Shown: piece after piece, positions 14,719 to 40,090 of the stretch | Layout: every line of letters starts with the position of its first letter | Position numbering within the stretch: the stretch's first letter is position 1 | DNA from: an uncultured SAR86 cluster bacterium | GTDB lineage: Bacteria > Pseudomonadota > Gammaproteobacteria > Magnimaribacterales > AG-339-G14 | Direction of reading: 5' to 3' | NCBI GenBank assembly: GCA_902562135.1 | Contig: CACESE010000005.1 | Location: 1 to 64,000, forward strand | Length of the DNA stretch: 64,000 bases | Made by a program: the position numbers and the translations under genes | Notes under the pieces: model-generated | Databases searched by the model: none | Seen by the model: the letters and a program-made list of their open reading frames with translations, nothing else | Told to the model about the DNA's origin: nothing

Positions 14719-16017
14719 ATGAAAAAAAAAGTTAAAAAAGAAATATCCGTTATTGGCCTTGGATATGTAGGGTTGCCTTTAGCGATTGAGTTTGGAAAAA
14801 AAAATAAGGTTATAGGATTTGATCTTAACAAGATAAGAATAAAAGAACTAAGAAGAGGGAAAGATAGTACTAAAGAGTGTACCAAGAGACAGATTGTCTC
14901 ATCTAAATATCTCTCCTTTACTTATGAACTTGATGAAATTAAATCTTCCAATGTTTATATCGTCACTGTTCCAACACCAGTAGATGACTCTAATCAACCA
15001 GATTTAAGTTTTTTAAAAAATGCAACCTTTTTAGTAGGAAGTATTTTGAAAAAGAATGATTTAGTAATTTTTGAATCTACGGTATATCCAGGAGCAACTG
15101 AAGAAATCTGTATTCCTATTTTAGAAAAAGAAAGTGGATTAAAAGGCGGTACAGATTTTTTCTTCGGATATAGCCCAGAAAGGACAAATCCTGGGGATAA
15201 AATAAATACCCTTACTAATATTAAAAAAATAACTAGTGGTTGTGACATAAAAACAGCCAAAACCATAAATGACCTTTATAAATCGATTATCAAAGCTGGA
15301 ACTTGGGAAGCAAGTAGCATAAAAGTAGCAGAGGCCGCAAAAGTTATCGAAAACTCTCAAAGAGATTTAAATATAGCCTTCATAAATGAATTATCTTTAA
15401 TCTTTGATCTCTTAAATATTGATACTATCGAAGTTCTAGAAGCCGCAGGATCTAAATGGAACTTTATGGATTTTAGACCAGGACTTGTAGGGGGACATTG
15501 CATTGGAGTTGATCCGTACTATCTAACTTTCAAAGCAGAGCAACTGGGTTATCAGCCTCAGGTAATTCTTTCAGGGAGAAGAATAAACGACGACATGGCA
15601 AAAATTACTGCAAAAAAGATTATAAAAAAGATGGTAAAAAATGAAATAAATATTTCAAAAGCAACGATTGCTATTTTTGGGGTAACTTTTAAGGATAATT
15701 GTCCGGATATACGTAATAGCAAAATTTTTGATTTAATCGAAGAAATAGAAAATTGGGGTATTAAAGTTAAATTAATAGACCCTTGGGCAGATAAAAAAGA
15801 AATAAAACAAAAACATAACAAAATATTAAGTGCTTCTTTTGCAGATCTAAAAGTAGATTCTATAGTTGTTGCAGTTGGTCATGATCAGTTCAAAAGGATA
15901 AGTGCAAAAAAATTGAGAACTCTTTGCAGATCTAAAAACCCTGTAATTGGTGATTTGAAATCTATCTATTCAAAAGAAAAATTAAAAGAAGAAGGATTTT
16001 CTGTAATACGTTTATAG
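14719..16017 (+). CDS. Nucleotide-sugar 6-dehydrogenase (TviB/WbpA-like)
   Basis: NAD-dependent two-step oxidation of UDP-N-acetylhexosamine to the uronic acid. The N-terminal motif VIGLGYVGLPLA binds NAD; the catalytic Cys is residue 261 in GGHCIGVDPYYLT; the C-terminal domain has FGVTFKDNCPDIRNS. The sequence most resembles the TviB/VipA group, which oxidises UDP-GlcNAc, rather than Ugd, which oxidises UDP-glucose. At 432 residues it is full length. It follows wzz by eight bases. A uronic acid product could be a substrate for one of the two amidotransferases in the cluster, but that is inference. Confidence 0.88.
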   Translation: MKKKVKKEISVIGLGYVGLPLAIEFGKKNKVIGFDLNKIRIKELRRGKDSTKECTKRQIVSSKYLSFTYELDEIKSSNVYIVTVPTPVDDSNQPDLSFLKNATFLVGSILKKNDLVIFESTVYPGATEEICIPILEKESGLKGGTDFFFGYSPERTNPGDKINTLTNIKKITSGCDIKTAKTINDLYKSIIKAGTWEASSIKVAEAAKVIENSQRDLNIAFINELSLIFDLLNIDTIEVLEAAGSKWNFMDFRPGLVGGHCIGVDPYYLTFKAEQLGYQPQVILSGRRINDDMAKITAKKIIKKMVKNEINISKATIAIFGVTFKDNCPDIRNSKIFDLIEEIENWGIKVKLIDPWADKKEIKQKHNKILSASFADLKVDSIVVAVGHDQFKRISAKKLRTLCRSKNPVIGDLKSIYSKEKLKEEGFSVIRL

Positions 16018-19734: not shown

Positions 19735-20792
19735 TGACTTTAAAAAATACTTCCAAGGTTTGGAAAAAAATAATATTACTAGAAGCCTCATCTATATTAG
19801 ATGCTGCTAAAAACTTAGAAGAAAACGGGGTCCAAATTGTTTTAGTTGTTGATAAAAAAAAATGTTTGGTAGGTACAGTATCGGATGGAGATATCAGAAG
19901 AGGTTTACTAGCAGGTTTAGATCTAAATAGTTCAGTTTTAAAGGTCGTGAATAAGAAGCCAAGAGTAGTTCCTGAAGCAGTTACAAGTGATTTAGCTCTA
20001 GAAATTATGAAGTCGAATAATTTAAGACAAATACCTATTGTAGATAAATCAAATAAAATCAAAGGAATTCATTTGTGGGATGAAATAACTGTAAAGGAGT
20101 CAAGAAGTAATATTATGGTTATTATGGCTGGAGGAAAGGGCATAAGAATGAGGCCCTATACCGAATCTTGTCCTAAGCCTATGTTAGAAGTAGCTAACAA
20201 ACCTATTCTTCAGCATATTATAGAGAAAGCAAAAAATGAGGGTTTTAATAAATTTATTATTTCCGTAAATTATCTCGGTCAGATGATAAAAGATTTTTTT
20301 GGTTCTGGAGAGAAATTTGGAATAGATATCGAATATTTAGACGAGGATTCTCCTTTAGGAACTGCCGGTTCTTTGTCTTTGTTAAAAATAAAAACTAAAG
20401 AGCCTTTTTTAGTTGTTAATGGAGATGTTGTAACAGGAGTTCGTTTTAAAAAAATTTTAAAATTCCATGATACACAAAATGCTCACGCAACTATGGCAGT
20501 AAGTTTACATGAGTGGCAACACCCTTTTGGAGTGGTTCATATGAATGGAATGAACATTACAAAAATTGAAGAAAAGCCTGTTTCTAGAGATTATATTAAT
20601 GCTGGAGTTTATGTTTTATCGCCAGAAGTATTAAAATTATTAAAAAAGAATAAATTTTGTGACATGCCAGAACTTTTTGAGCGCCTAAAAGCTAACAATT
20701 TTTCAACTATTGCCTATCCAGTTCATGAGCAATGGTTAGATGTGGGTAAACCTGATGATTATTACTTAGCAGAAAATTACTTAAAGAAATGA
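19734..20792 (+). CDS. CBS-domain sugar-phosphate nucleotidyltransferase (PtmE-like)
   Basis: Two CBS domains at about residues 8-118 (TVSDGDIRRG, LRQIPIVDK) precede a nucleotidyltransferase domain starting VIMAGGKGIRMRPYTE near residue 126 and containing the PKPMLEV and VNGDVV metal-binding blocks. This architecture matches PtmE of Campylobacter, a glucosamine-1-phosphate guanylyltransferase that starts the GDP-linked legionaminate route. Whether GTP is used here cannot be told by eye. The CBS pair suggests regulation by adenosine nucleotides. It overlaps both neighbours by a few bases. Confidence 0.85.
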   Translation: MTLKNTSKVWKKIILLEASSILDAAKNLEENGVQIVLVVDKKKCLVGTVSDGDIRRGLLAGLDLNSSVLKVVNKKPRVVPEAVTSDLALEIMKSNNLRQIPIVDKSNKIKGIHLWDEITVKESRSNIMVIMAGGKGIRMRPYTESCPKPMLEVANKPILQHIIEKAKNEGFNKFIISVNYLGQMIKDFFGSGEKFGIDIEYLDEDSPLGTAGSLSLLKIKTKEPFLVVNGDVVTGVRFKKILKFHDTQNAHATMAVSLHEWQHPFGVVHMNGMNITKIEEKPVSRDYINAGVYVLSPEVLKLLKKNKFCDMPELFERLKANNFSTIAYPVHEQWLDVGKPDDYYLAENYLKK

Positions 20793-21982
20793 AAAATAAT
20801 AAAAAGATTCCTGTCCTAAGGTGTTGTTCCAAATGTGGCCTTCCAGAAACTTATGAAACGATCGAGTTTGACGAAAAGAATGTTTGCAATATATGTAGAA
20901 GTGCAGAATACAAAAACGAATCTATAGATTGGGTTGAGAGAAAAAAATTATTAGATGCTTTAATTGAGAAACATAGAGGAAAATCAGATTACGATTGCAT
21001 TATTCCTTTTTCGGGAGGGAAAGACAGTACATTTCAATTATTTTACTTAGTTAAAGAATACAATATAAAGCCACTAGTGGTTCGTTTTAATCATGGATTC
21101 ATGAGAGAAACGATTCAGAAGAATAATGAAAGAACTTTCAAAAAACTTGGAGTAGATGTAATAGATTTTACTCCCAATTGGCATACAGTTAAAAAATTAA
21201 TGTTTGAGTCTTTCAATCGAAAAACTGACTTCTGCTGGCATTGTCATACTGGAATTTATTCTTACCCTTTAAGAGTGGCGCTTCTTCATAAAGTTCCTTT
21301 AGTTTTTTGGGGAGAGGCGCAAGCAGATATAACTGGTTACTACGATCACTTGAATGACGAGATTGAATATGAAGATGATAAAAAATTTAATATGTTAAGA
21401 ACCCTAGGAATTACTGCCGAAGACATGCATGGCATGATTGATAGCCCTGAAGATCCTGTCGATTTAAGAGATTTAATTCCATATACATTTCCTCCTGTAA
21501 AAGAATTAATAAAATTAGGTTATTGTTCAGTTCCTTTGGGAAGTTTTATTCCATGGGATTATAAAAAAAATACAGAAATAATTAAGCGTGAATTAGGCTG
21601 GGAAATTGATGAGCTTGAAGGCGTGCCAACTGAAATAAATCCTCATGGTGAAAAAATTGAATGTTTTATGCAGGGCACTAGAGATTATATTAAGTACATT
21701 AAAAGGGGGTATAGTAGGGTTGCTCAAATAAACGCATTTGATGTCAGATCAAATCGTTTATCTACGAGTGAAGCTAAAAAATTAAGTGAAAAGTATGATG
21801 GAAGAAAACCTCCCTCATTAGAAATTTTTCTGGAGTATATGGGATTGTCTGAAGAAGAATTTAATAAAATCGTCAAAGGTATGGCTATACCTCCCTACGA
21901 TCATGATTTTGATGCAAAAGGCGATGCGCCTAGAGTATGGGATTTTGATCAGTGGTATAGAGAAGACAATAGAAAAAAATAA
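20789..21982 (+). CDS. N-acetyl sugar amidotransferase (WbpG/PseA/LegA type)
   Basis: PP-loop ATPase that turns an N-acetyl group into an acetamidino group, using ammonia supplied by HisH and HisF. The 397 residues have a zinc-type pair CCSKC (residues 12-16) and CNIC (33-36) and the PP-loop SGGKDS at 75-80. In Pseudomonas WbpG and Campylobacter PseA the same layout is found next to extra HisH/HisF genes, and here hisH and hisF follow directly with a one-base overlap. The target is likely a nonulosonate or its CMP form, or a uronic acid, which the sequence cannot settle. Confidence 0.9.
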   Translation: MKNNKKIPVLRCCSKCGLPETYETIEFDEKNVCNICRSAEYKNESIDWVERKKLLDALIEKHRGKSDYDCIIPFSGGKDSTFQLFYLVKEYNIKPLVVRFNHGFMRETIQKNNERTFKKLGVDVIDFTPNWHTVKKLMFESFNRKTDFCWHCHTGIYSYPLRVALLHKVPLVFWGEAQADITGYYDHLNDEIEYEDDKKFNMLRTLGITAEDMHGMIDSPEDPVDLRDLIPYTFPPVKELIKLGYCSVPLGSFIPWDYKKNTEIIKRELGWEIDELEGVPTEINPHGEKIECFMQGTRDYIKYIKRGYSRVAQINAFDVRSNRLSTSEAKKLSEKYDGRKPPSLEIFLEYMGLSEEEFNKIVKGMAIPPYDHDFDAKGDAPRVWDFDQWYREDNRKK

Positions 21983-22599
21983 TGATCGGCATAGTAGATT
22001 ATGGGGCTGGAAATTTAGCTTCTGTTCATAATGCCTTTGAAAGAATAGGTGAGCATTCAGAAATATTTGAAGACTCAAAACTAATTGATAAATATGACCG
22101 CATAGTTTTGCCAGGAGTTGGGTCATTTTCTAGAGCTATGCATTTGCTAACATCCAAAGGTTGGAAAGAAGCAATACTCAATCATATAAATGATAAAAAA
22201 CCTTTTCTTGGGATATGTCTTGGCATGCAGATTTTATTTGAATCAGGTGATGAAAAAGGTCCTTGCGAAGGTTTGGGAGTGATTAAAGGAAAAGTTAAGC
22301 TGTTAAATCCTTCTTCATATTTAAAAATTCCTCATGTGGGATGGAACAACCTTTTACCTAGTAAAGAACATCCGGTGATGGAAGGTATAAAAGAAAATAT
22401 TGATTTTTATTTTGTGCATTCTTACAGATGCATACCCGAATCAAAAAAAGTAATCCTTTCTGAGTGTGATTATGGAGGTAAATTTGTATCATCAGTTTCA
22501 AAAGATAATGTCATTGGGATGCAATTTCATCCTGAAAAAAGTCAGCCAGTTGGGTTAAAGATTTTAAAAAATTTTTCAAATTGGGATGGTAAATGTTAA
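21982..22599 (+). CDS. hisH: HisH-type glutamine amidotransferase dedicated to sugar amidination
   Basis: Class I glutaminase that releases ammonia to a HisF partner. The 205 residues start MIGIVDYGAGN and have the catalytic triad Cys79 (GICLGMQ), His183 and Glu185 (FHPEKS). It overlaps the WbpG-type gene by one base and hisF by seven. No other histidine gene lies near, so it is most likely the HisH2 of the amidotransferase system and not part of histidine synthesis. Confidence 0.92.
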   Translation: MIGIVDYGAGNLASVHNAFERIGEHSEIFEDSKLIDKYDRIVLPGVGSFSRAMHLLTSKGWKEAILNHINDKKPFLGICLGMQILFESGDEKGPCEGLGVIKGKVKLLNPSSYLKIPHVGWNNLLPSKEHPVMEGIKENIDFYFVHSYRCIPESKKVILSECDYGGKFVSSVSKDNVIGMQFHPEKSQPVGLKILKNFSNWDGKC

Positions 22600-23354
22600 A
22601 AAAAAGAATAATTCCAGTTTTACTTTTGAAAGATAAAAGAATGGTTAAGGGTAAAAAATTCAAAGATTTTAAAGATACAGGAGAGCCCAAAACAGCCGTA
22701 AGAATATATAGTGCACAGGATGCTGATGAATTAGTGTTTTTGGATATTGATAATAATTCATCTTCATTGGGTAATTTAATAGAAATCGTTAAACAGGCCT
22801 CTGAGGAGTGTTTTATGCCGCTTGCTGCAGGAGGAGGAATTTCTGATATAAATCAAGCAAGAGAATTGTTAAAAGCAGGAGCTGACAAAATAGTTGTCAA
22901 CACTTCATGTGTTAAAAATCCATCGTTAATCAAAGAAATTTCTGAAGAGTTTGGAGAACAATGCGTAATAGGAAGCATAGATTATAAAATTTCAAATAAT
23001 TTAAGAGAGGTCTGGATAAAAAGTGGAAAGCTTAATACTAATTTAGATCCTTTGGAGCATGCAAAAAATTTAATTAAGCTTGGAGCTGGTGAAATTTTAT
23101 TAAATAGTATTGACCGAGATGGAATGATGGAAGGCTATGATCTTGAATACGCGGATAAAGTTTCTAAAGAAATAAACGTTCCTCTCATAGTTTGTGGCGG
23201 AGCAGGAAATTACATGCATCTCGCAGATTTGTTAAATAATACTTCTATATCAGCTGCGGCTTGTGCAAGTTTGTTTCATTTCGGAGATAATAATCCAATT
23301 CGCGCAAGGTCTTATTTAAAAAATCTTGATATTCCAATGAGAATGCTTAAATAA
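22593..23354 (+). CDS. hisF: HisF-like ammonia-channel protein lacking Asp11
   Basis: A 253-residue beta/alpha barrel of the HisF family. It aligns residue for residue at the N-terminus with histidine HisF (KRIIxxL), but the catalytic Asp11 is Leu11 in IIPVLLLKD, while Asp130 remains (GSID). The barrel blocks LVFLDID and AAGGGI are kept. Loss of one of the two catalytic acids argues against cyclase activity in histidine synthesis and for a role as a pure ammonia conduit from HisH to the WbpG-type enzyme. The extra HisF proteins beside WbpG in other bacteria have a similar VLLLK start. Confidence 0.9.
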   Translation: MLKKRIIPVLLLKDKRMVKGKKFKDFKDTGEPKTAVRIYSAQDADELVFLDIDNNSSSLGNLIEIVKQASEECFMPLAAGGGISDINQARELLKAGADKIVVNTSCVKNPSLIKEISEEFGEQCVIGSIDYKISNNLREVWIKSGKLNTNLDPLEHAKNLIKLGAGEILLNSIDRDGMMEGYDLEYADKVSKEINVPLIVCGGAGNYMHLADLLNNTSISAAACASLFHFGDNNPIRARSYLKNLDIPMRMLK

Positions 23355-23356
23355 AA

Positions 23357-24334: not shown

Positions 24335-24348
24335 TAATCATCTTTGAA

Positions 24349-26389: not shown

Positions 26390-26406
26390 TCCGGAAAAGA
26401 TAATAA

Positions 26407-27207
26407 ATGACTACGTTTAATAAACTACTAGATATGAAAGGAAGGCTTTGTTTAATTACAGGAGCATCCGGAAGTATTGGATCAGTTCTTTCAGAAACAA
26501 TGAGTGAGCTTGGTGCTGACTTAATAATTGTGGACAAAGATTTAGGAAAATTAAACAAATTGAAAAAAACTTTAGAAAAGAAATGGGAAAATAATATTTA
26601 CTCTTACGAATGTGACATTGAATATGAGACTGAAAGAAAAAAATTATTTAGAAAAATTAATGCTAAGTTTTCAAATTTGAACTGCTTAGTTAATAATGCT
26701 GCTTTTATAGGTTCATCGAAATTGAAAGGGTGGAATGAACCATTAGAAAAGCAATCTTTGGAAACATGGAGAAGAGCCTTTGAAGTAAATTTAACTGCCG
26801 CTTTTCATTTTTGCCAATTATTTTTTCCTTTATTAAAGATCAGTAAGGGGTCGAATATCATAAACATCTCCTCAATTTATGGTGAGTATGCGCCTGATTG
26901 GTCAATATATGAAAATACTTCAATAAATAATCCTGCTGCCTATTCAGTTTCAAAAGCAGGCTTAAATCATTTAACGAAATATCTTGCTTCGTATTTTGCG
27001 CCGAATGTAAGAGTCAACACAATATCTCCAGGCGGAATGAAAAGAAATCAAGACAAACAATTTGTCAAAAAGTATAAAAATAAAACTTTGTTAAAAAGAA
27101 TGTCCAAAGAAGATGACTTAAGGGGCGCATTAGCTTATTTAGCAACTGATCTCTCTGAATACGTGACAGGACAAAACCTTAGAGTTGATGGGGGTTGGGG
27201 AATTTAA
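26407..27207 (+). CDS. Short-chain dehydrogenase/reductase (PtmA-like)
   Basis: NAD(P)-dependent oxidoreductase of 266 residues. It has the cofactor motif TGASGSIGS near residues 19-27, NNAAF, the catalytic Ser in NISSIYGEY and Tyr-x3-Lys in YSVSK; the tail DGGWGI is classical for SDRs. Flagellin-glycosylation clusters with legionaminate genes carry a similar SDR called PtmA. Function on a sugar intermediate is inferred from position only. Confidence 0.85.
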   Translation: MTTFNKLLDMKGRLCLITGASGSIGSVLSETMSELGADLIIVDKDLGKLNKLKKTLEKKWENNIYSYECDIEYETERKKLFRKINAKFSNLNCLVNNAAFIGSSKLKGWNEPLEKQSLETWRRAFEVNLTAAFHFCQLFFPLLKISKGSNIINISSIYGEYAPDWSIYENTSINNPAAYSVSKAGLNHLTKYLASYFAPNVRVNTISPGGMKRNQDKQFVKKYKNKTLLKRMSKEDDLRGALAYLATDLSEYVTGQNLRVDGGWGI

Positions 27208-29212: not shown

Positions 29213-30388
29213 ATGATTAATTTAAAAAATTCATCAAGTTTTTTTTTAATATCTATTCTATTATTTTTTTCTTTTCCTTTAGCCATTCCTTCATTTGAGT
29301 ATTCTTTAATTTTTATTCAGTTTTTACTTTTTGTTCCGATTTTTATTTTTTTAAAACTATTTCAAACCAATTTGTTAGGAATATTATTGGTATTGTTATA
29401 CCTCTTTTTGCTTCTACTTGTTCCATTTGATATGCCTGGAAGTGTTGTAGGCTGGATGTCAATGTTATGTGTAGGATATTTTTTTGGCGAATATGCAAAT
29501 CGTGATGGAATACAAACTCTGAAAGAACTTAGAGTTTTTGTACTATCTTCTATCTTGCTTACTTTGTGGATTTTATTTCAGAATTATCAGAATTCTTTTA
29601 GCTATGATTTGCTTTCAGATTATTTCGCAGCATCAAGTATTAATACGGTCCCTATATTAATGGTTTGTCTAACAAATTTATTCTGCGTTATATATTTTCA
29701 CAGTGTTTATTTTAATGATAAGTACTTATTCGTGAATTTAAAATTTTCAAGAAAGCTTCTGTTTCTGCTATTTCTTATAAGTTCTCTTTCTGTAATTATC
29801 TTTGAGTTGAGAAGTGGCATAGGAATATTTTTCCTTTGGTCTATAGTTATTTGGAATTCATTTGGCCATAAAAGCCCATTGATAAAATATTTTTTACTTT
29901 TTGCTTTGGTCACAATAATTTCTTTATTTTATGTTGATATCCTTTTGGATTTAATTTTAAGTTTTCTTGTTCCAGGAAGAGAGAATTTAGCTTCTTTGAC
30001 TGCGGAGTTGTCTGAAGGAGCTCTTAGATACGATGAAATTATTACTTTCTGGGAAGTAGCGGGAGTGTCAAATAAATTAAACTTTCATATTTGGTCAGAA
30101 AATTTTAGCGTGTCAGGTATGTCTGATTTTATAGCAGCCTTATTTCCTATCTCTTTATTGATCTTTATTCCTTTCATATGGTCCTTTAAAATTATTAAAA
30201 AAATTAATAAAAGAAATAGAAATGCTATTTTAATAATCTTTACGAGTATGTTTTCATCACTTTTTATTTCAGTACTTCAACCTGACTTTTTTTCTATGTT
30301 TACTTTTTTTGCGATAGTTTTTTACATCTTTTTTGCAGAGAGAAAAAAGATCTTGCACTCACAAATTTTCAAAGCTGACCAGATATGA
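29213..30388 (+). CDS. Polytopic membrane protein, candidate O-antigen polymerase (Wzy)
   Basis: A 391-residue protein with about ten hydrophobic segments spread along its length and a longer loop near residues 245-300. Wzy polymerases have this profile and little sequence conservation. The cluster has wzz and wzx and no other polymerase candidate, which makes Wzy the best guess. No diagnostic motif was found, so this is a topology and context call. Its stop overlaps the ATG at 30385. Confidence 0.55.
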   Translation: MINLKNSSSFFLISILLFFSFPLAIPSFEYSLIFIQFLLFVPIFIFLKLFQTNLLGILLVLLYLFLLLLVPFDMPGSVVGWMSMLCVGYFFGEYANRDGIQTLKELRVFVLSSILLTLWILFQNYQNSFSYDLLSDYFAASSINTVPILMVCLTNLFCVIYFHSVYFNDKYLFVNLKFSRKLLFLLFLISSLSVIIFELRSGIGIFFLWSIVIWNSFGHKSPLIKYFLLFALVTIISLFYVDILLDLILSFLVPGRENLASLTAELSEGALRYDEIITFWEVAGVSNKLNFHIWSENFSVSGMSDFIAALFPISLLIFIPFIWSFKIIKKINKRNRNAILIIFTSMFSSLFISVLQPDFFSMFTFFAIVFYIFFAERKKILHSQIFKADQI

Positions 30389-30820: not shown

Positions 30821-30861
30821 AACAAAAGATTTTAAATTGCGCCATAATTTTTATTGCATGA
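30817..30861 (+). other. 14-codon open frame linking the remnant to the next gene
   Basis: ATG at 30817 overlaps the previous stop (ATGA) and encodes MKQKILNCAIIFIA, ending at TGA 30859-30861, which itself overlaps the ATG of the next gene at 30858. The two ATGA junctions would let ribosomes pass from one frame to the next. It may be a coupling peptide or a leftover of a lost gene. No function is claimed. Confidence 0.25.
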
Positions 30862-32144
30862 AACATATTTTCGAACTTTATAATTACGTTAGAGAAAGGC
30901 ATAACATCGTATGGACTTTTAAAGGCATCTTTCTTGCATTGATAAAATCAACAAACAAATTACCCAAAAACGTAGATATTTTATTTTTTTGTCACGATGT
31001 TCACAGACATGTAAAAAAAAATGGCAAGATGTATGCGCCTTTGTTAGATCCTATTATTGAAGAGATTGAGCAAGATAATGAGTGCTTTACTCTAGCGAGT
31101 CCTTTTTCTAAGTTGTCTGGAAAAAAATGTTTTGGAAAAGTAGATATACACAATTCGTTTATTATTTTTGCACTCCTAAAAAGGTTTTTTTTAAATTTTA
31201 GTTTAAAACTAATGAATGTCGATAATGACCCTTTAATAAAAGGGTATGAAAAAATCTTTAAAAAGATTGAACCAAAAAAAATATTAGCTATTCAACCTTC
31301 AATAGAATTATGTATTGCAGCTAAAAAAATGAACATTAAAACATTTGATGTGCAACATGGAATTATTACAGATGTAAACTACTACAATCTTTCAAAAAGA
31401 CATTCTTTTAATCAGTTAGGATGGCCTGATTATATTCTTTGCTGGGATAAAGAGAGTGAACTTAGATTAAAAAGATTAACTGACAATAAAGTTAATTCTA
31501 AAGTTGTTGGACATCCATCCTATCACTCTGGGTATGGATATCTCGAAAGGGAAAATTTTCAACGGAAAAATAATTTTAAAAATCTATCGCTTAAGAAGAA
31601 AATTTTGGTTTCTTTAACTTATCTAGACTACGGCGTAGACCATGAAGATAGTTATTATAAAGAAATTGGAATTCCAAAAGAGCTTGTTTTGCTTATTAAA
31701 AATACAAGTGAATTTGAATGGCATTTAAGAATGCACCCAGTTCAGCTTAAGTATAGTCATAAAAGAATTTCTAAATATCTAAAAAATTTATTTTCTAATA
31801 ATAAAAATGTTTATTGGGAGGAACCTAGTAAGACTTCTCTATCTCAAGCTCTTTTTGCATCAGTTGGTCATATTACCGTTGAGTCAGCAACAGCTCTTGA
31901 TGCAGCTCAAAATTCAGTCCCTACAATTCTTATAGGATGTCCTGGCGTATCCAATCGAAATAAAGCTGATTTATATTTTAAGGAATACTTAGATAAGAAA
32001 ATTATGAAATTCGTAGATTCCAAAGATCTTAGCAATTTATCCCTAGATTTTTTTCTATCAGAATTTGATTTTAAGAAGAAAAATAAATTTTTAGATGAAG
32101 GAAATAAGAATTTTAAAAATTTTGTTGAAGAATTAAAAAATTAA
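30858..32144 (+). CDS. Putative GT-B glycosyltransferase or surface-carbohydrate protein
   Basis: A 428-residue soluble protein from the ATG at 30858 (a TTG at 30837 would add seven residues). It has a C-terminal half with features of GT-B glycosyltransferases: DVQHGIITD near residue 170, WHLRMHPVQ near residue 293, and HITVESATALDAAQ near residue 340, similar to CDP-glycerol and capsule transferase folds where a His-Gly and a Ser/Thr-rich loop bind the nucleotide. No confident family assignment was made. It sits between the polymerase candidate and the flippase. Confidence 0.5.
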   Translation: MKHIFELYNYVRERHNIVWTFKGIFLALIKSTNKLPKNVDILFFCHDVHRHVKKNGKMYAPLLDPIIEEIEQDNECFTLASPFSKLSGKKCFGKVDIHNSFIIFALLKRFFLNFSLKLMNVDNDPLIKGYEKIFKKIEPKKILAIQPSIELCIAAKKMNIKTFDVQHGIITDVNYYNLSKRHSFNQLGWPDYILCWDKESELRLKRLTDNKVNSKVVGHPSYHSGYGYLERENFQRKNNFKNLSLKKKILVSLTYLDYGVDHEDSYYKEIGIPKELVLLIKNTSEFEWHLRMHPVQLKYSHKRISKYLKNLFSNNKNVYWEEPSKTSLSQALFASVGHITVESATALDAAQNSVPTILIGCPGVSNRNKADLYFKEYLDKKIMKFVDSKDLSNLSLDFFLSEFDFKKKNKFLDEGNKNFKNFVEELKN

Positions 32145-32145
32145 A

Positions 32146-33405
32146 ATGAAACCTAACTTAATTTCAAATACTCTTATCTATGGATTATCAGGTACTTTAG
32201 TAGCTTTAATTCCTTTCGTACTTTTGCCTTTTATGACAAGAGCTCTTAGTCAAGGAGACTTTGGAACGGCATTATTTTTTAGCGCATTAACTACCATTGC
32301 ACTTCCCTTTATTGGCTTGGGAGCATCTAATGCAATCAGCGTTAGATTTTTTCAATTAGATACTAATAAATTAAGTAATTATATTTGGTCCTGCATTTTT
32401 CTAAATTTTGTTTCGACATTCTTTCTAATTTTTATTTTTTATTTTAGCCATACTTTATTTTCAGATTTGTTAATCATAGATTCGAGTTGGATTTATTTAT
32501 CAATTTGCATTTCGGGTTTTTGGGGCATTTCTCAATCCTGTGGAATTTATTTAATAGCAAGATCAAGCCCAAAATTATATTTTGTTATCAATGCACTTAT
32601 TGGAATACCTACGGTCGGATTAACAATTTTTTTAATCAATTTCTTTGGATATTCATGGCAAGGATTTGCTTTAGCCTTATTTGTATCACATTTTTTGGCA
32701 GCAATAGTCTCGCTTGCAATTTTAAAAATTGAAGTTGGCTTTTCTAAAGTATGCAAGGAATATGTCATTGATAGTTTAAAATTTGGCTCTCCTATAATGA
32801 TACATTCCCTCGGTTTAGCTCTGATAACTTATTTCGATCGTTTGATCGTTTCTAACTTCTTAGGCATTGAGAAGTTGGGAGAATACTCAGTTGCTTTTCA
32901 ACTTGGCATAATTTTGAGCTTTATTGCTCAGGCATTTAACAAAGCTTTTGTTCCCTGGTTATATGGAAATCTTAAAATAAATTCAATGGAGTCACATTTA
33001 AAAATTGTAAGAGGTACATATTTAATTTTTTTGTTGATTATTGTTTTTGTTTTAATTTTTATAAGTCTTTTAGATTTTTTAATTATTATTTTCGCTGGTG
33101 AGTCTTATAGAAACGTATTCAATATAGCAGCTATTATTTCAATTGGTTCGGCATTCAATGCGGCTTATTTGACTGTTATAAATTATGTATTTTATGCTGA
33201 GAAAACACTAGAACTCTCATTACTGACTATGTCTGTAGCTATTTTTTTTATTATTTTAAGTTTTATTTTAACCCCATTACTCGGATTAATTGGTGCTTCA
33301 ATTTCTTTTGCAATATCTAATTTGTTATTATTCTTAAGTGTTTGGATGTTAGCTATAAGGTCATACAAAATGCCTTGGTTTTCCATGAAACTTTTCATCC
33401 AATAA
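32146..33405 (+). CDS. wzx: Oligosaccharide flippase (Wzx family)
   Basis: Polytopic membrane protein of 419 residues with about twelve hydrophobic segments and the MATE/MOP-fold N-terminus (SNTLIYGLSGTLVALIPF, then TRALSQGDFGT). It moves lipid-linked repeat units across the inner membrane. Together with wzz and the polymerase candidate it shows a Wzx/Wzy route. It begins one base after the preceding gene. Confidence 0.88.
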   Translation: MKPNLISNTLIYGLSGTLVALIPFVLLPFMTRALSQGDFGTALFFSALTTIALPFIGLGASNAISVRFFQLDTNKLSNYIWSCIFLNFVSTFFLIFIFYFSHTLFSDLLIIDSSWIYLSICISGFWGISQSCGIYLIARSSPKLYFVINALIGIPTVGLTIFLINFFGYSWQGFALALFVSHFLAAIVSLAILKIEVGFSKVCKEYVIDSLKFGSPIMIHSLGLALITYFDRLIVSNFLGIEKLGEYSVAFQLGIILSFIAQAFNKAFVPWLYGNLKINSMESHLKIVRGTYLIFLLIIVFVLIFISLLDFLIIIFAGESYRNVFNIAAIISIGSAFNAAYLTVINYVFYAEKTLELSLLTMSVAIFFIILSFILTPLLGLIGASISFAISNLLLFLSVWMLAIRSYKMPWFSMKLFIQ

Positions 33406-33415
33406 AAATTTTTTA

Positions 33416-35236
33416 ATGTGTGGAATTTTTGGAATAATCTCAGAAAAAAAAATTGATTTAAACTCTTTCAAAAAACTTGCGTTGCTCAGTGAGAGAAGAG
33501 GAAGGGATTCAAGCGGTCTATTATTTTTCGAAACAGATACTTACAAAATATTAAAAGCTGATTACAGGTGTAAAAATTTATTAAAAGAAATTTCCGATCT
33601 TCAGACTCAGTGCATTATTGGACATAGTAGGTTGATAACTAATAGCCAACTAGACAATCAGCCTGTACATAGAAACGGTATATCAATTATTCATAACGGA
33701 ATTATTTTAGATGACGATCTTTATTGGCAAAGCTCGTCATTAAGTCCTGAATATAAAATTGACACAGAAGTTTTGTTAGCAATCACTTTAGAACATTTAA
33801 ATGTGCAAGGTTCATTAGAGGGTTTGTATGAAAAATTTCTAGAACAGTCCAAAGGGGCATTCTCTTGCTGTTTAACGTTTCCAAAGCTAGGGAAATTAGT
33901 TTTACTGTCTAATACTGGAAGTTTGTACTATTCAGAATCTGATAAAAAAGTAATTTTTGCCTCAGAAAAATATTTTTTATCAGCAATGAATCAAAAAAAA
34001 ATTCATCAATTGAAAGGAATGCAATCCTTTGACATTCCCATTTCCGAAGAAAGTGTTCTTATAGACGAAAGAAAAATTGTCAGGGACAACTTAGTTCCCT
34101 CATTGCCAAAAGAAACCCTTTTAGAAAAAAAACTTTTATTTGAAGTTCCAAACTTAAAAAGATGCACAAAATGTATCTTGCCTGAAACCATGCCATTTAT
34201 TAAGTTCAATTCTGAAGGAGTTTGCAATTATTGTGAAAATTACACTCCTAGAAACAAACCAAAAGACAAAGACGAGTTATTAAACTTGCTGAAAAGCTAT
34301 GAGAAATTTTCAGGAAATAAATGCATTGTTCCTCTATCAGGGGGCAGAGATAGTAGTTACGCGCTACATATAATTAAAAAAGAGTTAAAAATGAGTCCTA
34401 TCACAATGACTTACGATTGGGGAATGGTGACAGACTTGGCTAGAAGAAATATAAGTCGAATGTGCTCTCAACTTGGTGTAGAAAACATAATTATTGCGGA
34501 TAACATCTCAAAAAAAAGATCTAATATAAAAAAAAATCTTTTAGCTTGGTTAAAAAAACCTGATTTAGGCATGCTGAACATATTAATGGCAGGAGATAAA
34601 CATTTCTTCAGACATATTGAGTCAATTAAAAAAGAACTTGGAGTTTCTCTTAACATTTGGGGAATGAATCCACTTGAAGTAACGCATTTCAAAGCAGGAT
34701 TTCTTGGTTATGTTCCTGATTTTGAAACGAAACAAGTTTTTTACACAGGCCTTTCAAGTCAGCTCAGATATCAATTCTTGAGAGCTATTGCGATGCTTAA
34801 AAATCCGAGTTATTTAAATAGTTCTTTATGGGACACTCTGTCTGGAGAATATTACAGAAGCGTAAAAACTCAAAAAGATTTTTACAATGCATATGATTTT
34901 TGGCAGTGGGATGAAAATTTAATTAATGAATCATTGAAAGAATATGAGTGGGAAACTGCCGTAGATACTAAATCGACATGGAGAATTGGAGATGGCACAG
35001 CTGCATTTTATAATTATGTTTATTTTACTTTGGCCGGATTTTCAGAATTTGACACTTTTAGAAGTAATCAGATAAGAGAAGGACAGCTTTCACGTCCACA
35101 AGCATTGGAATATGTTAACGAAGAAAATGCTCCCAGATATCAAAATATAAAGTGGTATTTGGATGCAATTGGTATGGATTTTGAAAAAGTTGTAGAGACT
35201 ATTAACTTGAATCATAAAAAATATTACCCAACATGA
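33416..35236 (+). CDS. Fusion of class II glutaminase and WbpG/PseA-type sugar amidotransferase
   Basis: A 606-residue two-domain enzyme. Residues 1 to about 215 are a class II (Ntn) glutamine amidotransferase like that of GlmS: Cys2 in MCGIFGI is the nucleophile after Met removal, with ERRGRDSSG, IGHSRLITNSQ and HNGII in the known order. A linker leads to a WbpG/PseA-like domain with the zinc-type CTKC (250-253) and CNYC, the PP-loop SGGRDS at 308-313, and a long C-terminal part akin to the gene at 20789. Glutaminase and ATP-dependent amidotransferase would act in one chain, with no need for HisH or HisF. It starts 10 bases after wzx and overlaps the next gene by four. The substrate is unknown. 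Confidence 0.85.
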   Translation: MCGIFGIISEKKIDLNSFKKLALLSERRGRDSSGLLFFETDTYKILKADYRCKNLLKEISDLQTQCIIGHSRLITNSQLDNQPVHRNGISIIHNGIILDDDLYWQSSSLSPEYKIDTEVLLAITLEHLNVQGSLEGLYEKFLEQSKGAFSCCLTFPKLGKLVLLSNTGSLYYSESDKKVIFASEKYFLSAMNQKKIHQLKGMQSFDIPISEESVLIDERKIVRDNLVPSLPKETLLEKKLLFEVPNLKRCTKCILPETMPFIKFNSEGVCNYCENYTPRNKPKDKDELLNLLKSYEKFSGNKCIVPLSGGRDSSYALHIIKKELKMSPITMTYDWGMVTDLARRNISRMCSQLGVENIIIADNISKKRSNIKKNLLAWLKKPDLGMLNILMAGDKHFFRHIESIKKELGVSLNIWGMNPLEVTHFKAGFLGYVPDFETKQVFYTGLSSQLRYQFLRAIAMLKNPSYLNSSLWDTLSGEYYRSVKTQKDFYNAYDFWQWDENLINESLKEYEWETAVDTKSTWRIGDGTAAFYNYVYFTLAGFSEFDTFRSNQIREGQLSRPQALEYVNEENAPRYQNIKWYLDAIGMDFEKVVETINLNHKKYYPT

Positions 35237-36456
35237 CTCAATCTAAAAAGAATATTTGGTATATATCTAAATATTTAAATTTACCAGAGAATGGTAACTT
35301 CCCTGGACGCGGGTTTTCATTGTTAAGGGAATTCTCAAAAAAAGATTTGGACTGCACCTTATTTGTTGCACGACATGAAATGAACTTTTTTAAAAAAAAT
35401 AATATTCCTTCTGTTGAAATTGTCTATATTCATGGTGTTAGAGTAATTAAGTTAAATATAATTAAGTATAAAAAAACTAAATCTTTCTTGAGAATCTTAG
35501 GCTGGTTACAATTTGAAATAAAATTATTCTTTTTAAAAAAAAATACACTTCCAAAACCAGATGTAATTATTAGTTCAAGTCTTTCTATTTTAAGCATACT
35601 AAATGGAATTTTTTTTAAATGGATTTTTTCAAGTAAATTAATTTTTGAAGTAAGAGATATTTGGCCACTAGTTATAATCGAAAATGGAGGATTCAGTAAG
35701 TACAACCCGTTTGTACTTTTACTAAGTTTTGTTGAATGGCTTGGTTACAAATATTCTGATGAGATAGTAGGCACCATGCCTAATTTAAAAGAACATGTTC
35801 AAAATATTTTAGGAAAAGATAAAAATGTAACTTGTATACCAATGGGCATTTCAAATGAGTTGGAATCTCAAAAAATTCTACCTATGCCTGAAAAATTAAA
35901 TGATGCATTTCCAGACGATAAGTTCATATTAACTTATGCAGGATCCATCGGTATAGATAACGCATTAGAAACATTTTTCAAAAGCGCTGAGTCTTTAGTT
36001 TCCGATGACAAGATTGTTTTTAGAATTGCTGGAAAAGGAGATCTATTAGATTTTTATAAAAAAAAATTTAATCATCTTAAAAATATCCAATTTATTGGAA
36101 ACTTAGAAAGTAAATATGTTCAAACTATTTTGAGGAAAAGTGATTGTTTGTATTTTGCTGCTCATCCAACCAAAGTGCTCAAATATGGACAGTCTTTGAA
36201 TAAATTAATTGACTATATGTTTTCTGGAAAAATTATTATTGCTTCTTTTAGTGGTTACGAATCTATGTTGAATGAATCAGGATGCGGTTATTTTGTTCCT
36301 GCCGGAGATGAAATTAAACTTGCTCAAAAAATAAAAGAAATTTCGAATAAATCTCTTTTCGAGTTAAACGAAATTGGTAACAAGGGAAAGGATTGGATTT
36401 TATCTAATAGAAAGTATGATCTTCTTGCTGAAGAATATTTAAACCTGATTTTGTAA
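35233..36456 (+). CDS. Glycosyltransferase family 4 (WbuB-like)
   Basis: GT-B fold transferase of 407 residues. The N-terminal half starts NIWYISKYLN with a glycine-rich loop GRGFSLLREF; the C-terminal half has the nucleotide-binding LTYAGSIGIDNALE and the E-x7-E-like region of GT4 enzymes near HPTKVLKYGQSLNKLIDYM. It probably adds one sugar of the repeat unit on the cytoplasmic face. Donor and acceptor cannot be read from sequence. Confidence 0.85.
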   Translation: MTQSKKNIWYISKYLNLPENGNFPGRGFSLLREFSKKDLDCTLFVARHEMNFFKKNNIPSVEIVYIHGVRVIKLNIIKYKKTKSFLRILGWLQFEIKLFFLKKNTLPKPDVIISSSLSILSILNGIFFKWIFSSKLIFEVRDIWPLVIIENGGFSKYNPFVLLLSFVEWLGYKYSDEIVGTMPNLKEHVQNILGKDKNVTCIPMGISNELESQKILPMPEKLNDAFPDDKFILTYAGSIGIDNALETFFKSAESLVSDDKIVFRIAGKGDLLDFYKKKFNHLKNIQFIGNLESKYVQTILRKSDCLYFAAHPTKVLKYGQSLNKLIDYMFSGKIIIASFSGYESMLNESGCGYFVPAGDEIKLAQKIKEISNKSLFELNEIGNKGKDWILSNRKYDLLAEEYLNLIL

Positions 36457-36488: not shown

Positions 36489-37676
36489 GTGGATATTTTA
36501 AAAATAATTGGAAGGAAAGAGAGTTTATTTGCTCAAGATGTTACTTGTGTAGAAAATGATTTAAGGGATATTGTAAAAAAAAGTAATTTTTTAATAATAG
36601 GCGGCGCTGGTTCAATAGGAAAAGCTGTAACAAAAGAGATATTTGTAAGAAAACCAAATTTATTGCATGTTGTTGACATAAGCGAGAATAATCTTGCTGA
36701 GCTGGTAAGAGATATTAGAAGCTCTCTAGGTTATATAGAAGGGGAGTTTAAAACTTTTGCCCTTGATTGCGGGAGTTCTGAGTATGAATTCTTTGTTTCG
36801 TCAAATTCTACATATGATTTCGTACTCAATTTGTCTGCAATGAAGCATGTCAGAAGTGAAAAAGATCCATTTTCTTTAATGAGACTTATAAATGTAAATA
36901 TTTTAAATACCCTTAAAACTTTAGAATTAGCAAAAAAAAATAAAACCAAAAAATATTTTTGTGTGTCTACGGACAAAGCAACCAATCCTGTAAATATGAT
37001 GGGAGCAAGCAAAAGAATTATGGAAATGTTTTTGATGCAAGAAGAAGATTCAATTGAAATATCTACCGCAAGATTTGCTAATGTAGCTTTTTCTGATGGG
37101 TCACTTCTTCATAGTTTTAATCAGAGATTTATCCAAAAGCATCCTCTTTCAGGTCCAAATGACGTGAAGAGATATTTTGTATCTGCGAAGGAGTCAGGAG
37201 AATTATGTTTGATGTCTTGTATTTTAGGAGAAAATAAAGATATTTTTTTCCCTAAATTGTCCGAAAAAATAAAATTAACCTCTTTTCCGGAAATAGCAAG
37301 AAGGTTTCTTAATGAAAAGGGTTATGAACCTTATGAGTGCTCTAGCGAAATTGAGGCAAGAACAAAAATTGATAAATTAATTTCTCAAAAAAAATGGCCA
37401 TGTTATTTTTCTGCCTCAGATACTTCTGGAGAAAAAGATACTGAAGAGTTTTTTACAAGTGAAAACATTTTGGATAATGAAAAGTTTGAAAATATAGGGA
37501 TAATTAAAAACAAAATTAACCCCGATGATCCAGAATTAAAGAATTTTCTTAAAAGGATTGAACAATTTAAAATTTCGAATAAATGGAGTAAAAAGGATCT
37601 TGTGAAATTATTTGAAGAGACAGTCAAAGAATTTAATCACTTAGAAACTTCTAAAAATCTTGATGAAAAAATGTAA
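36489..37676 (+). CDS. UDP-N-acetylhexosamine 4,6-dehydratase-like protein (LegB/PglF/CapD group)
   Basis: Polysaccharide_synt_2 domain protein of 395 residues. It starts with GTG at 36489. The NAD motif GGAGSIGKAV lies near residues 38-47; STDKATNP and MMGASKRIMEM are the active-site region, where Met replaces the usual Tyr as in other FlaA1/CapD-type dehydratases. It lacks the N-terminal membrane part of PglF, so it resembles soluble LegB. It would give the 4-keto-6-deoxy sugar for the aminotransferase at 38915 and so start both bacillosamine and legionaminate synthesis. Confidence 0.82.
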   Translation: MDILKIIGRKESLFAQDVTCVENDLRDIVKKSNFLIIGGAGSIGKAVTKEIFVRKPNLLHVVDISENNLAELVRDIRSSLGYIEGEFKTFALDCGSSEYEFFVSSNSTYDFVLNLSAMKHVRSEKDPFSLMRLINVNILNTLKTLELAKKNKTKKYFCVSTDKATNPVNMMGASKRIMEMFLMQEEDSIEISTARFANVAFSDGSLLHSFNQRFIQKHPLSGPNDVKRYFVSAKESGELCLMSCILGENKDIFFPKLSEKIKLTSFPEIARRFLNEKGYEPYECSSEIEARTKIDKLISQKKWPCYFSASDTSGEKDTEEFFTSENILDNEKFENIGIIKNKINPDDPELKNFLKRIEQFKISNKWSKKDLVKLFEETVKEFNHLETSKNLDEKM

Positions 37677-37688
37677 TATTTTTAGAAA

Positions 37689-38270
37689 ATGAAAAGATTT
37701 TTTGATTTAGTTATTTCTTCACTTGGTTTGCTCTTAGTCTCTCCCATTTTTGTTTTAATATTTTTTTCCGTTTTTATCATTTTAGGGAAGCCTATCTTTT
37801 TTATTCAAAAGAGATCTGGTTATAAAAAAAATGGTTTTTATTTAATTAAATTTAGAACTATGTTGGAAAATAAAAAAGATTCGACAGTTGATGATGAAAT
37901 CAGACTTACGAAATTTGGAAGTTTTTTAAGGTCGTATAGCCTTGATGAATTACCAGCACTTTTTAACGTGCTAAAAGGGGATATGAGTTTAGTTGGCCCA
38001 AGGCCTTTGCTTTACGAGTACCTTGAGTTATACGATGATTTCCAAATCAAAAGACATGAAGTTAAGCCCGGAATTACAGGATGGGCCCAAATTAATGGAA
38101 GAAACAATATTACTTGGCAAGAAAAATTTGATCTTGATCTATGGTATGTAGAAAATAACAATTTTTTATTAGATTTAAAGATACTTTTTAAAACTATCCT
38201 GTTGGTTTTATTTAAGTCAGGAATATCTCAGAAGGGACATGTGACCAGTAAGAAATTCGAAGGGAATTAA
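37689..38270 (+). CDS. Initiating sugar-1-phosphate transferase (PglC-like)
   Basis: Small monotopic phosphoglycosyl transferase of 193 residues. One N-terminal hydrophobic hairpin at about residues 8-34 is followed by the core KFRTM, SLDELPALFNVLKGDMSLVGPRP (shown in part) and WAQINGR motifs, with the DE catalytic pair in LDELP. It loads the first sugar onto undecaprenyl phosphate. Its neighbours on both sides are of the bacillosamine type, so UDP-diNAc-bacillosamine is a likely donor. Confidence 0.9.
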   Translation: MKRFFDLVISSLGLLLVSPIFVLIFFSVFIILGKPIFFIQKRSGYKKNGFYLIKFRTMLENKKDSTVDDEIRLTKFGSFLRSYSLDELPALFNVLKGDMSLVGPRPLLYEYLELYDDFQIKRHEVKPGITGWAQINGRNNITWQEKFDLDLWYVENNNFLLDLKILFKTILLVLFKSGISQKGHVTSKKFEGN

Positions 38271-38273
38271 ATT

Positions 38274-38912
38274 ATGAGCTTAATCACGTATGGAATTTTT
38301 GGAGCAGGAGGAAATGCTTCGGAACTTTTGCCGATTTTGAAAGAGCAACTCAATACTAGTTCTGCTAACAAATATAAAATTTTTTTTGTTGATGAAGATG
38401 AGACTAAAAAAACCTTTTGCAATTTAAATGTTTTAACAACTAAAGAGTTTATGAATTTAAATAAAAATCAAAAAAAAATTGTTTTATCTCCTGCGGACTC
38501 AAAAGTTAGAGAAAGAATTGTAGATGAACTTCAAGGAAATATAGATTTTATAAATTTAATTTCGAGAGATTTTGTGAATTTGTCAGAATGCAGTTTAGGA
38601 AATGGTCTAACAATTGCTCAGAAATGTATTATTACATCTGGCGTGAAATTGGGAAATTTTATTCAAATTAATTTAAATGTTTCTATTCAACATAATTGTC
38701 TGATAGAAGATTACGTAACTATAGCTCCTTCAGTTTCTTTAATGGGTAACGTAAAAATAGGAAAGCACGCTTATATTGGAGCCGGAGCAGTTATCAAACA
38801 AGGTGTGCAAATTGGACCTCGGTCTACAGTAGGTATGGGTTCGGTTGTTGTTAAAGATGTTCCAGAAGATACAACTGTTTATGGAAACCCTGCTAAACCA
38901 AAAAATAATTAA
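38274..38912 (+). CDS. Sugar N/O-acetyltransferase (PglD/NeuD/LegH type)
   Basis: A 212-residue protein with an N-terminal Rossmann-like part (YGIFGAGGNASELL) and a left-handed beta-helix of hexapeptide repeats from about residue 100 (LGNGLTIAQKCII, IGAGAVIKQG), ending VYGNPAKPK. PglD acetylates the 4-amino group of the UDP-amino sugar; NeuD is the related sialic acid O-acetyltransferase. The flanking dehydratase and aminotransferase favour the PglD/LegH role. Confidence 0.86.
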   Translation: MSLITYGIFGAGGNASELLPILKEQLNTSSANKYKIFFVDEDETKKTFCNLNVLTTKEFMNLNKNQKKIVLSPADSKVRERIVDELQGNIDFINLISRDFVNLSECSLGNGLTIAQKCIITSGVKLGNFIQINLNVSIQHNCLIEDYVTIAPSVSLMGNVKIGKHAYIGAGAVIKQGVQIGPRSTVGMGSVVVKDVPEDTTVYGNPAKPKNN

Positions 38913-38914
38913 TC

Positions 38915-40090
38915 ATGAATTCTTGGCCAAGTTTTACAAAACACGAATCAAAAATAGCTCAAAAAATAATTGCTTCTTCAAAAGTAAATTATTGGACAGG
39001 AAATGAAGGCAAACTATTTGAAGCAGAGTTTTCAAAATGGGTAGGGGTAAAATATGCAATTGCAGTTTCTAATGGATCGGTTGCTTTAGATTTAGCTTTG
39101 AAAAGTCTAGATTTAAAAAAAGGAGATGAAGTAATTGTAACACCTCGCTCTTTTGTAGCTTCAGCAACTTCAGTTGTAAATTGTGGAGCTAAACCAGTTT
39201 TCGCAGATGTAGATCTATCTTCGGGTAACCTATCTTCAAAAACTATTATTAGAAAAATAACGAAAAAAACAAAAGCTATCATATGTGTTCATTTGGGTGG
39301 GTTACCCTGTGAAATGGACGAAATCTTGAAATTAGCTAAAAAGTTTAATCTGTATGTTATAGAAGATTGCGCACAAGCTCATGGAGCTTTTTATAAAAAT
39401 AAAAGTGTGGGAAGTATTGGACATATAGGAGCTTGGTCTTTTTGTCAGGACAAAATTATAACGACTGGCGGAGAAGGAGGAATGATAACAACTAATGATA
39501 AAAAACTCTGGCAAAAAATGTGGGCTTTTAAAGATCACGGAAAAAACTATCATTCTGTATTTAAAAAAAAGCATCCTCCTGGGTTTAGATGGTTACATGA
39601 TAGCTTTGGGACTAATTTTAGAATGACCGAAGTTCAATCAGCAATAGGAAGATACCAATTAAGAAAACTTAAAAGTTGGAATAAAATAAGAAAAAGAAAT
39701 GCTTCTATAATTCAAAACATTGCTTTGAAATTCCCAGAATTTCTTCATGTTCCTCATTTGCCAATACATTCTAACCATGCTTTTTACAGATGTTACATTC
39801 AAGTTAAAGAAAATTCTTTAAAAGATAAATGGAATAGAGACAAAATAATTAGTGAAATAGTTTCACATGGCGTTCCTGCCTTTTCTGGTTCATGTTCTGA
39901 AATTTACTTAGAAAAGGCATTTAAAGATAGTAAATTTTCCATAAAAAAGAGATTGCCTAATGCAAAAGAATTAGGTGAAACTTCTTTATGTTTTTTGGTT
40001 CATCCGACTTTAACAAAGAAAGATATGAACAAGGTAAGTTCGGTTCTTTTAAAAGTTTTCAAAAAAATTAAAAAAGATAATATCAAGTAG
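38915..40090 (+). CDS. DegT/DnrJ/EryC1 sugar aminotransferase (PglE/LegC type)
   Basis: PLP enzyme of 391 residues that converts the 4-keto sugar to the 4-amino sugar. The PLP lysine is residue 180 in SFCQDKIITTGGEGG, EDCAQAHGA contains the ring-binding Asp, and AVSNGSVALDLAL is the phosphate-binding stretch. It begins two bases after the acetyltransferase. With the dehydratase and acetyltransferase it makes a UDP-diacetamido-trideoxyhexose. Confidence 0.9.
   Translation: MNSWPSFTKHESKIAQKIIASSKVNYWTGNEGKLFEAEFSKWVGVKYAIAVSNGSVALDLALKSLDLKKGDEVIVTPRSFVASATSVVNCGAKPVFADVDLSSGNLSSKTIIRKITKKTKAIICVHLGGLPCEMDEILKLAKKFNLYVIEDCAQAHGAFYKNKSVGSIGHIGAWSFCQDKIITTGGEGGMITTNDKKLWQKMWAFKDHGKNYHSVFKKKHPPGFRWLHDSFGTNFRMTEVQSAIGRYQLRKLKSWNKIRKRNASIIQNIALKFPEFLHVPHLPIHSNHAFYRCYIQVKENSLKDKWNRDKIISEIVSHGVPAFSGSCSEIYLEKAFKDSKFSIKKRLPNAKELGETSLCFLVHPTLTKKDMNKVSSVLLKVFKKIKKDNIK

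Follow-up and report, generated by a model that had tools for sequence, protein, structure and literature searches.

A class II glutaminase fused to an N-acetyl sugar amidotransferase domain: a widespread family and a probable one-chain route to amidino sugars

Background

Can one protein chain of a surface glycan cluster do the work for which a separate synthetase, glutaminase and ammonia channel are otherwise used? Acetamidino sugars are rare surface groups, and the described cases that we found involve WbpG-type enzymes with ammonia supplied by HisH and HisF. The window considered here (the whole stretch of DNA that was analysed, 64,000 nucleotides) has such a set of three genes and, in the same cluster, a gene joining a glutaminase to a WbpG-type domain. 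We found in the literature no description of this domain combination and no demonstration of the chemistry of the N-acetyl sugar amidotransferase (NASAT) in vitro. We believe that the fusion is probably a self-contained glutamine-dependent N-acetyl sugar amidotransferase that makes an amidine, likely on the sugar handled by the neighbouring glycosyltransferase, GT4b. A conserved one-chain version would be a much simpler enzyme for reconstitution.

The fusion protein

The gene and its parts are as follows.

33416..35236, + strand: fusion gene, class II (Ntn) glutaminase plus N-acetyl sugar amidotransferase; 606 amino acids, intact open reading frame, ATG start
33416..34105, + strand: GlmS-like glutaminase domain, residues 1-230 (alignments with GlmS 4amv/1xff, fold match to 1xff)
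34157..35179, + strand: NASAT/WbuX domain, residues 248-588 (TIGR03573 profile, 8wex)
34163..34234, + strand: zinc tetracysteine motif C250xxC253 ... C270xxC273, common to fusions and stand-alone WbuX
34337..34354, + strand: PP-loop SGGRDS, residues 308-313 (sequence and alignments)

A preliminary description of the window had read a glutaminase and a WbpG-type domain in this one chain. Profiles, Pfam, motifs and the predicted structure bear this reading out, and SGGRDS lies at 308-313, exactly where that description put it. Among the glutaminase profiles, residues 1-200 match GlmS with 52.7 bits, PurF with 44.7 and AsnB with 44.3; the protein is above the gathering scores of both GATase_6 (38.0 bits against 27) and GATase_7 (32.7 bits against 25). 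Residues 248-588 match the WbuX model TIGR03573 over positions 2-335 of 344 (E=3.9e-34) with 118.6 bits, a score below the curated cut-off of 203.2 bits. By its sequence the fusion thus appears as a diverged relative of TIGR03573 and is not a member by the cut-off rule, so that its substrate or even its reaction may have shifted.

Across 40 aligned fusion homologues Cys2, R28G29, D31, S33, R72, T75, N76, N94G95 (in HNGII) and D116 are invariant, and the GlmS positions Cys2, Arg72, Thr75, Asn94, Gly95 and Asp116 align with the catalytic residues of the fusion. The four zinc cysteines, SGGxDS, N345, E421, G541 and R560 are, in the alignment, common to the fusions and the stand-alone WbuX proteins. 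A PDB sequence search with the whole chain gives a single match, 8wex, which is the N-acetyl sugar amidotransferase of Legionella (LpNASAT); a profile built from the 40 fusions matched GlmS and 8wex about equally well. The AlphaFold2 model, computed from an alignment with plasmid-derived rows left out, has a pLDDT of 89.8 and a pTM of 0.89. In Foldseek one half resembles the GlmS glutaminase domain 1xff (TM-score by target 0.73) and the other 8wex (TM-score by target 0.55, probability 1.00).

An asparagine-synthetase-like C-terminal half, named in the preliminary description as one finding that would overturn it, was ruled out by profile, PDB sequence and fold comparisons. The asparagine synthetase model TIGR01536 gives 44.3 bits against a cut-off of 267.1, the chain has no Asn_synthase Pfam match, and AsnB superposes on the model only piecewise (rmsd about 22 A), whereas the TIGR03573 match is near-complete. 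The half is WbpG-type, as had been proposed.

Distribution and origin

The preliminary description had suggested a search for GATase_6/7 followed by the NASAT family; this order recurs end to end in at least 80 named genomes. Every one of the top 80 loci in the named-genome scan is a fusion, about 600 residues being aligned at 46-60% identity; the hosts belong to Pseudomonadota, Bacteroidota, Actinomycetota, Planctomycetota, Verrucomicrobiota, Bacillota, Campylobacterota, Rhodothermales and Prochlorococcus. Pseudomonas peradeniyensis, Devosia and Agrobacterium sp. RAC06 are examples of non-pathogens with a homologue. Copies are also found on two Agrobacterium plasmids (56%) and on one Solidesulfovibrio plasmid (39%). 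The 80 named-genome loci and two plasmids aligned over about 600 residues, together with the confident predicted structure, place the domain order far beyond chance. This is a widespread family without a family name. Its genes are publicly annotated as “hypothetical protein”, “glucosamine 6-phosphate synthetase” or “7-cyano-7-deazaguanine synthase”, and the present assignment corrects these annotations.

Within the phylum the fusion occurs in 3 of 398 sampled genomes, the window's own counted. All 40 close relatives of the window genome that were scanned lack it, a pattern consistent with the cluster being exchanged horizontally as a whole. In a tree of NASAT domains built by a quick method all the fusions form one clade with full support, with a single phage loss nested inside; the fusion most likely arose once.

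A profile search of viral sequences found phage copies, and a single-sequence viral search found none. In two IMG/VR contigs (L121 and L122) a full-length fusion at 5001-6827 stands beside portal- and prohead-like genes; these contigs were assigned to phages only by eye and by their collection, and on such sequence grounds phages look to be carriers of the gene. A third phage-like contig (L123, 4992-6104) has the NASAT half alone (370 amino acids, 61% identical), an apparent loss of the glutaminase half, with WecB-like and UDP-sugar dehydratase genes nearby. In Alcaligenaceae bacterium CGII-43 (L120, about position 10001) the homologue begins with MPGIFG in place of MCGIFG, and the nucleophile Cys2 is replaced.

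The window cluster

The other genes of the cluster to which we refer are these.

14719..16017, + strand: TviB/WbpA-type UDP-GlcNAc 6-dehydrogenase; in several phyla its homologues occur with the fusion
20789..21982, + strand: stand-alone WbuX/WbpG (NASAT), 319.5 bits, above the family cut-off
21982..22599, + strand: HisH-type class I glutaminase of the classic trio (profile)
22593..23354, + strand: HisF2/WbuZ/AglZ-type ammonia-channel subunit of the classic trio (profile)
32146..33405, + strand: Wzx-type flippase, upstream of the fusion
35233..36456, + strand: GT4 glycosyltransferase (GT4b), 4-base overlap with the fusion stop; recurrent partner of the fusion across phyla
36489..37676, + strand: FnlA/PseB-like UDP-GlcNAc 4,6-dehydratase
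37689..40090, + strand: initiating phosphoglycosyltransferase, NeuD/PglD-type acetyltransferase and DegT aminotransferase (bacillosamine-type first sugar); such genes usually follow on the 3' side of the fusion

The classic WbpG-HisH-HisF set reported at 20789-23354 is real, with profile matches to all three genes. It had been placed next to the fusion; it does belong to the same cluster but lies about 10 kb upstream. By analogy with Legionella, this trio probably serves a nonulosonic acid. The region around it (16027-27207) holds a nonulosonic acid-type set in an unusual combination: NeuB, NeuC, a CBS-nucleotidyltransferase (PtmE-like), a PseF-like cytidylyltransferase, a PtmA-like reductase, a class III aminotransferase, an LmbE-type deacetylase and two formyltransferases. 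Elsewhere in the genome (G000:C1:32985-33668) there is a second HisF, which scores 285.3 bits on the WbuZ model, nearly as much as the cluster HisF, and is probably the histidine-pathway copy. For two window proteins, at 29213-30388 (391 amino acids) and 30837-32144 (435 amino acids), neither NCBIfam nor Pfam gave a match at the thresholds applied.

The genome of the window comprises 988,923 bases and is 76% complete. TviB is present in it, and no good match to WbpB, WbpD, WbpE or WbpI was found in this 76%; either the substrate in the window differs or these genes lie in the missing sequence. A GlcNAcA/GalNAcA-type or a 6-deoxy amino sugar is a possible substrate here.

Gene neighbourhoods of the fusion

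We compared 84 fusion loci. Among 83 cases, 44 have the same GT4b as the gene directly 3' of the fusion. After it come genes for an initiating phosphoglycosyltransferase, a NeuD-type acetyltransferase, a DegT aminotransferase and a PglF/WbpM-type dehydratase. In the sample of 398 genomes, GT4b with at least 40% identity turned up only in the 3 that have the fusion. This association suggests that modification falls on the sugar added by GT4b, which adjoins the first sugar of the repeat.

The WbpA/B/D/E(/I) pathway, which leads to 2,3-diacetamido uronic acids, is commonly encoded upstream. A WbpB-, WbpD- or WbpE-like gene close to the Escherichia albertii O1 versions is found in 24 of the 61 fusion loci that have at least 9 kb of upstream sequence. 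In 12 of the 84 loci (e.g., L069, 676-2067) a VimE deacetylase relative (NF053580, below the cut-off) is encoded near the fusion, a hint that some of the sugars may receive a C-2 amino acid as they do in the Wbp/Vim pathway.

The complete set of WbuX, HisH and HisF is found in 14 of the 84 loci, so that two ammonia systems in one cluster are a recurrent pattern. It had been expected that two such supplies would be new or at least uncommon; they are uncommon, but the window is not unique in this, and the fusion family itself is widespread. Separate AsnB/WbpS-type enzymes are present in 20 fusion loci. Among 34 Pseudomonadaceae loci picked by the WbpE gene alone, the fusion is found in 5 (3 of them also with the trio), the trio alone in 6 and an AsnB-type enzyme in 8. 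A close GT4b (55-57%) is found in these loci only alongside the fusion; two loci with no fusion have a GT4 at 33-34%.

The Escherichia albertii O1 cluster

A DNA search of E. coli genomes returned two chicken isolates, Z1323CEC0003 (L180) and Z1323CEC0011, in which an entire O-antigen cluster lies between galF and gnd. In Z1323CEC0003 the order is Gfo/Idh/MocA, tviB, acyltransferase, DegT, wzx, wzy, GT4, wecB, fusion, GT4b. Two broken copies of an ISAs1 transposase are also seen in the cluster of these isolates. Both E. albertii O1-specific wzy primers (PMC5622975) match this cluster exactly, 107 bp apart, which is the published product size; we therefore take it to be the E. albertii O1 antigen cluster.

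The fusion and GT4b of this cluster are 56% and 46% identical to those of the window. The cluster encodes the ManNAc3NAcA pathway (WbpA/B/D/E/I). None of WbpG, HisH2 and HisF2 is found in it, and the fusion is its only amidotransferase; that Z1323CEC0003 has no second NASAT is judged from the cluster and from typical E. coli, a species not among the control genomes matching in the NASAT profile search. The O1 repeat reportedly has one acetamidino residue. The structure of this O antigen has been published (Zheng et al. 2017, Carbohydr. Res. 446-447, 28-31), and the title of that paper, as cited in PMC10622841, likens it to the O antigen of P. aeruginosa O5, in which the C-3 acetamidino group of ManNAc3NAmA is made by WbpG (PMC10607449). 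The authors of the E. albertii O-cluster survey considered that gene content and functions fit the structures (PMC5622975), and the link from the fusion to the amidine may already be implied there. In E. coli O180 the sugar pathway is the same, and both fusion and trio are missing; O180 cross-reacts serologically with E. albertii O1, the clusters being overall unrelated (PMC6927306), which fits a shared ManNAc3NAcA.

An O1 cluster with no trio, the reported resemblance to O5, and O180 with no fusion indicate together that the fusion most likely replaces WbpG, HisH and HisF. The acetamidino product, inferred in the preliminary description, thereby gains indirect backing from a cluster in which no other amidotransferase is found. 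This comparison is the main support for the product and also its weakest documentary link.

Discussion

We presume that the fusion works as follows. The Ntn glutaminase, with Cys2 as its nucleophile after removal of Met1, would free ammonia from glutamine, and the ammonia would pass inside the chain to the NASAT domain. There the PP-loop and ATP would adenylate the oxygen of the sugar N-acetyl group, releasing PPi, and ammonia would displace AMP to leave an acetamidino group. One chain would thus do the work of WbpG, HisH and HisF. The modified sugar would most likely be the one transferred by the adjacent GT4b; in most Wbp-type clusters it is probably a 2,3-diamino-uronic acid, ManNAc3NAcA being converted to ManNAc3NAmA.

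A variant of the preferred explanation, differing from it in substrate, is that the amidine is formed on another N-acyl group or another sugar. Candidates are C-2 of GlcNAcA/GalNAcA, a bacillosamine-type sugar and a 6-deoxy amino sugar, e.g., FucNAc. For the window this variant is the natural reading, considering a genome with TviB and FnlA/PseB-like enzymes and no WbpB/D/E/I matches; the loci of the nearest homologues (L041 and L058) likewise show TviB and no WbpB/D/E in the available locus sequence, and marine O antigens are known to contain 2-acetamidino uronic acids (GalNAmA) as well as FucNAm (PMC3210612). However, the window genome and these loci are incomplete, and the tight conservation of the family (about 50-60% across phyla), shared by GT4b, suggests one main substrate, so that overall we regard a different sugar as rather unlikely. 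Amidation of a carboxyl is a more distant proposal: the fusion would turn a uronic acid (GlcNAcA, ManNAc3NAcA) into a uronamide, as WbpS does with its AsnB-type domain. Uronate-forming TviB/WbpA homologues and Wbp-pathway genes are indeed often near the fusion, enzymes of the WbpS type also carry a class II glutaminase (PMC7468200), and the 14 loci with both fusion and trio are easily understood if the two modifications differ. Yet the synthetase half is NASAT and not AsnB, 20 fusion loci already have separate AsnB/WbpS-type enzymes, and the O antigen of E. albertii O1 is reported to resemble one whose special feature is an acetamidino group made by WbpG; we find the uronamide improbable.

It is very improbable, in our opinion, that the glutaminase half is structural or regulatory, with ammonia coming from HisH-HisF or from solution. 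The phage contig that keeps a 61% identical NASAT half by itself and the bacterial copy in which Cys2 is missing could be read in this way, but the catalytic residues are all invariant in the 40 aligned homologues, and a dedicated HisH-HisF pair is missing from the E. albertii O1 cluster, which leaves only the pair of the histidine operon.

Returning to the self-contained amidotransferase, if fusion and trio catalyse the same reaction, it has to be explained why some clusters have both. The window is one such case; others are O5-like clusters, among them those of Pseudomonas and Polaromonas, and Pseudomonas fildesensis is an example of a strain with both systems. Our suggestion, tentative and one that may well prove wrong, is that the two ammonia routes (the fused class II glutaminase and the HisH-HisF channel) would lead to two amidines within a single repeat unit, one on each of two different sugars. 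Each would be linked to a glycosyltransferase of its own, and the two might be formed at different stages (on the sugar nucleotide or on the lipid-linked form). With E. albertii O1 as an anchor, acetamidino sugars become predictable in many genomes that have no HisH-HisF pair.

Comparison with known systems

Two proteins were considered as known members and rejected: WbmE of Bordetella is a periplasmic deamidase of the transglutaminase family, and WbpS has a synthetase domain of AsnB type. WbpS/WbqG (P. aeruginosa O6, P. gingivalis PGN_1234) share with the fusion a class II glutaminase, a PP-loop domain and an occurrence in surface glycan clusters (PMC7468200); their AsnB-type synthetase half gives a carboxamide, whereas the fusion has a NASAT half that cannot be superposed on AsnB. 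GlmS (1xff) and PurF have the same Ntn fold, cysteine nucleophile and RG-DSSG, HNGII and Asp motifs, but the fusion has no isomerase or PRTase domain, its second domain is an ATP-PPase, and Trp74 of GlmS is Leu in it.

Between clusters, E. albertii O1 has the WbpA/B/D/E/I sugar pathway and no trio; the window, in contrast, has the trio, and the pathway was not found in its genome.

The closest relatives are WbpG/WbuX/PseA (TIGR03573; LpNASAT 8wex), which resemble the fusion in the synthetase domain, the four zinc cysteines, SGGxDS, the setting in clusters for amidated diamino sugars and the probable reaction. The fusions differ from stand-alone WbuX in forming a separate long-stemmed clade, in the score below the cut-off and in their conserved surface residues. 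WbpG/WbuX/PseA take ammonia from HisH through HisF, whereas the fusion has a class II glutaminase of its own.
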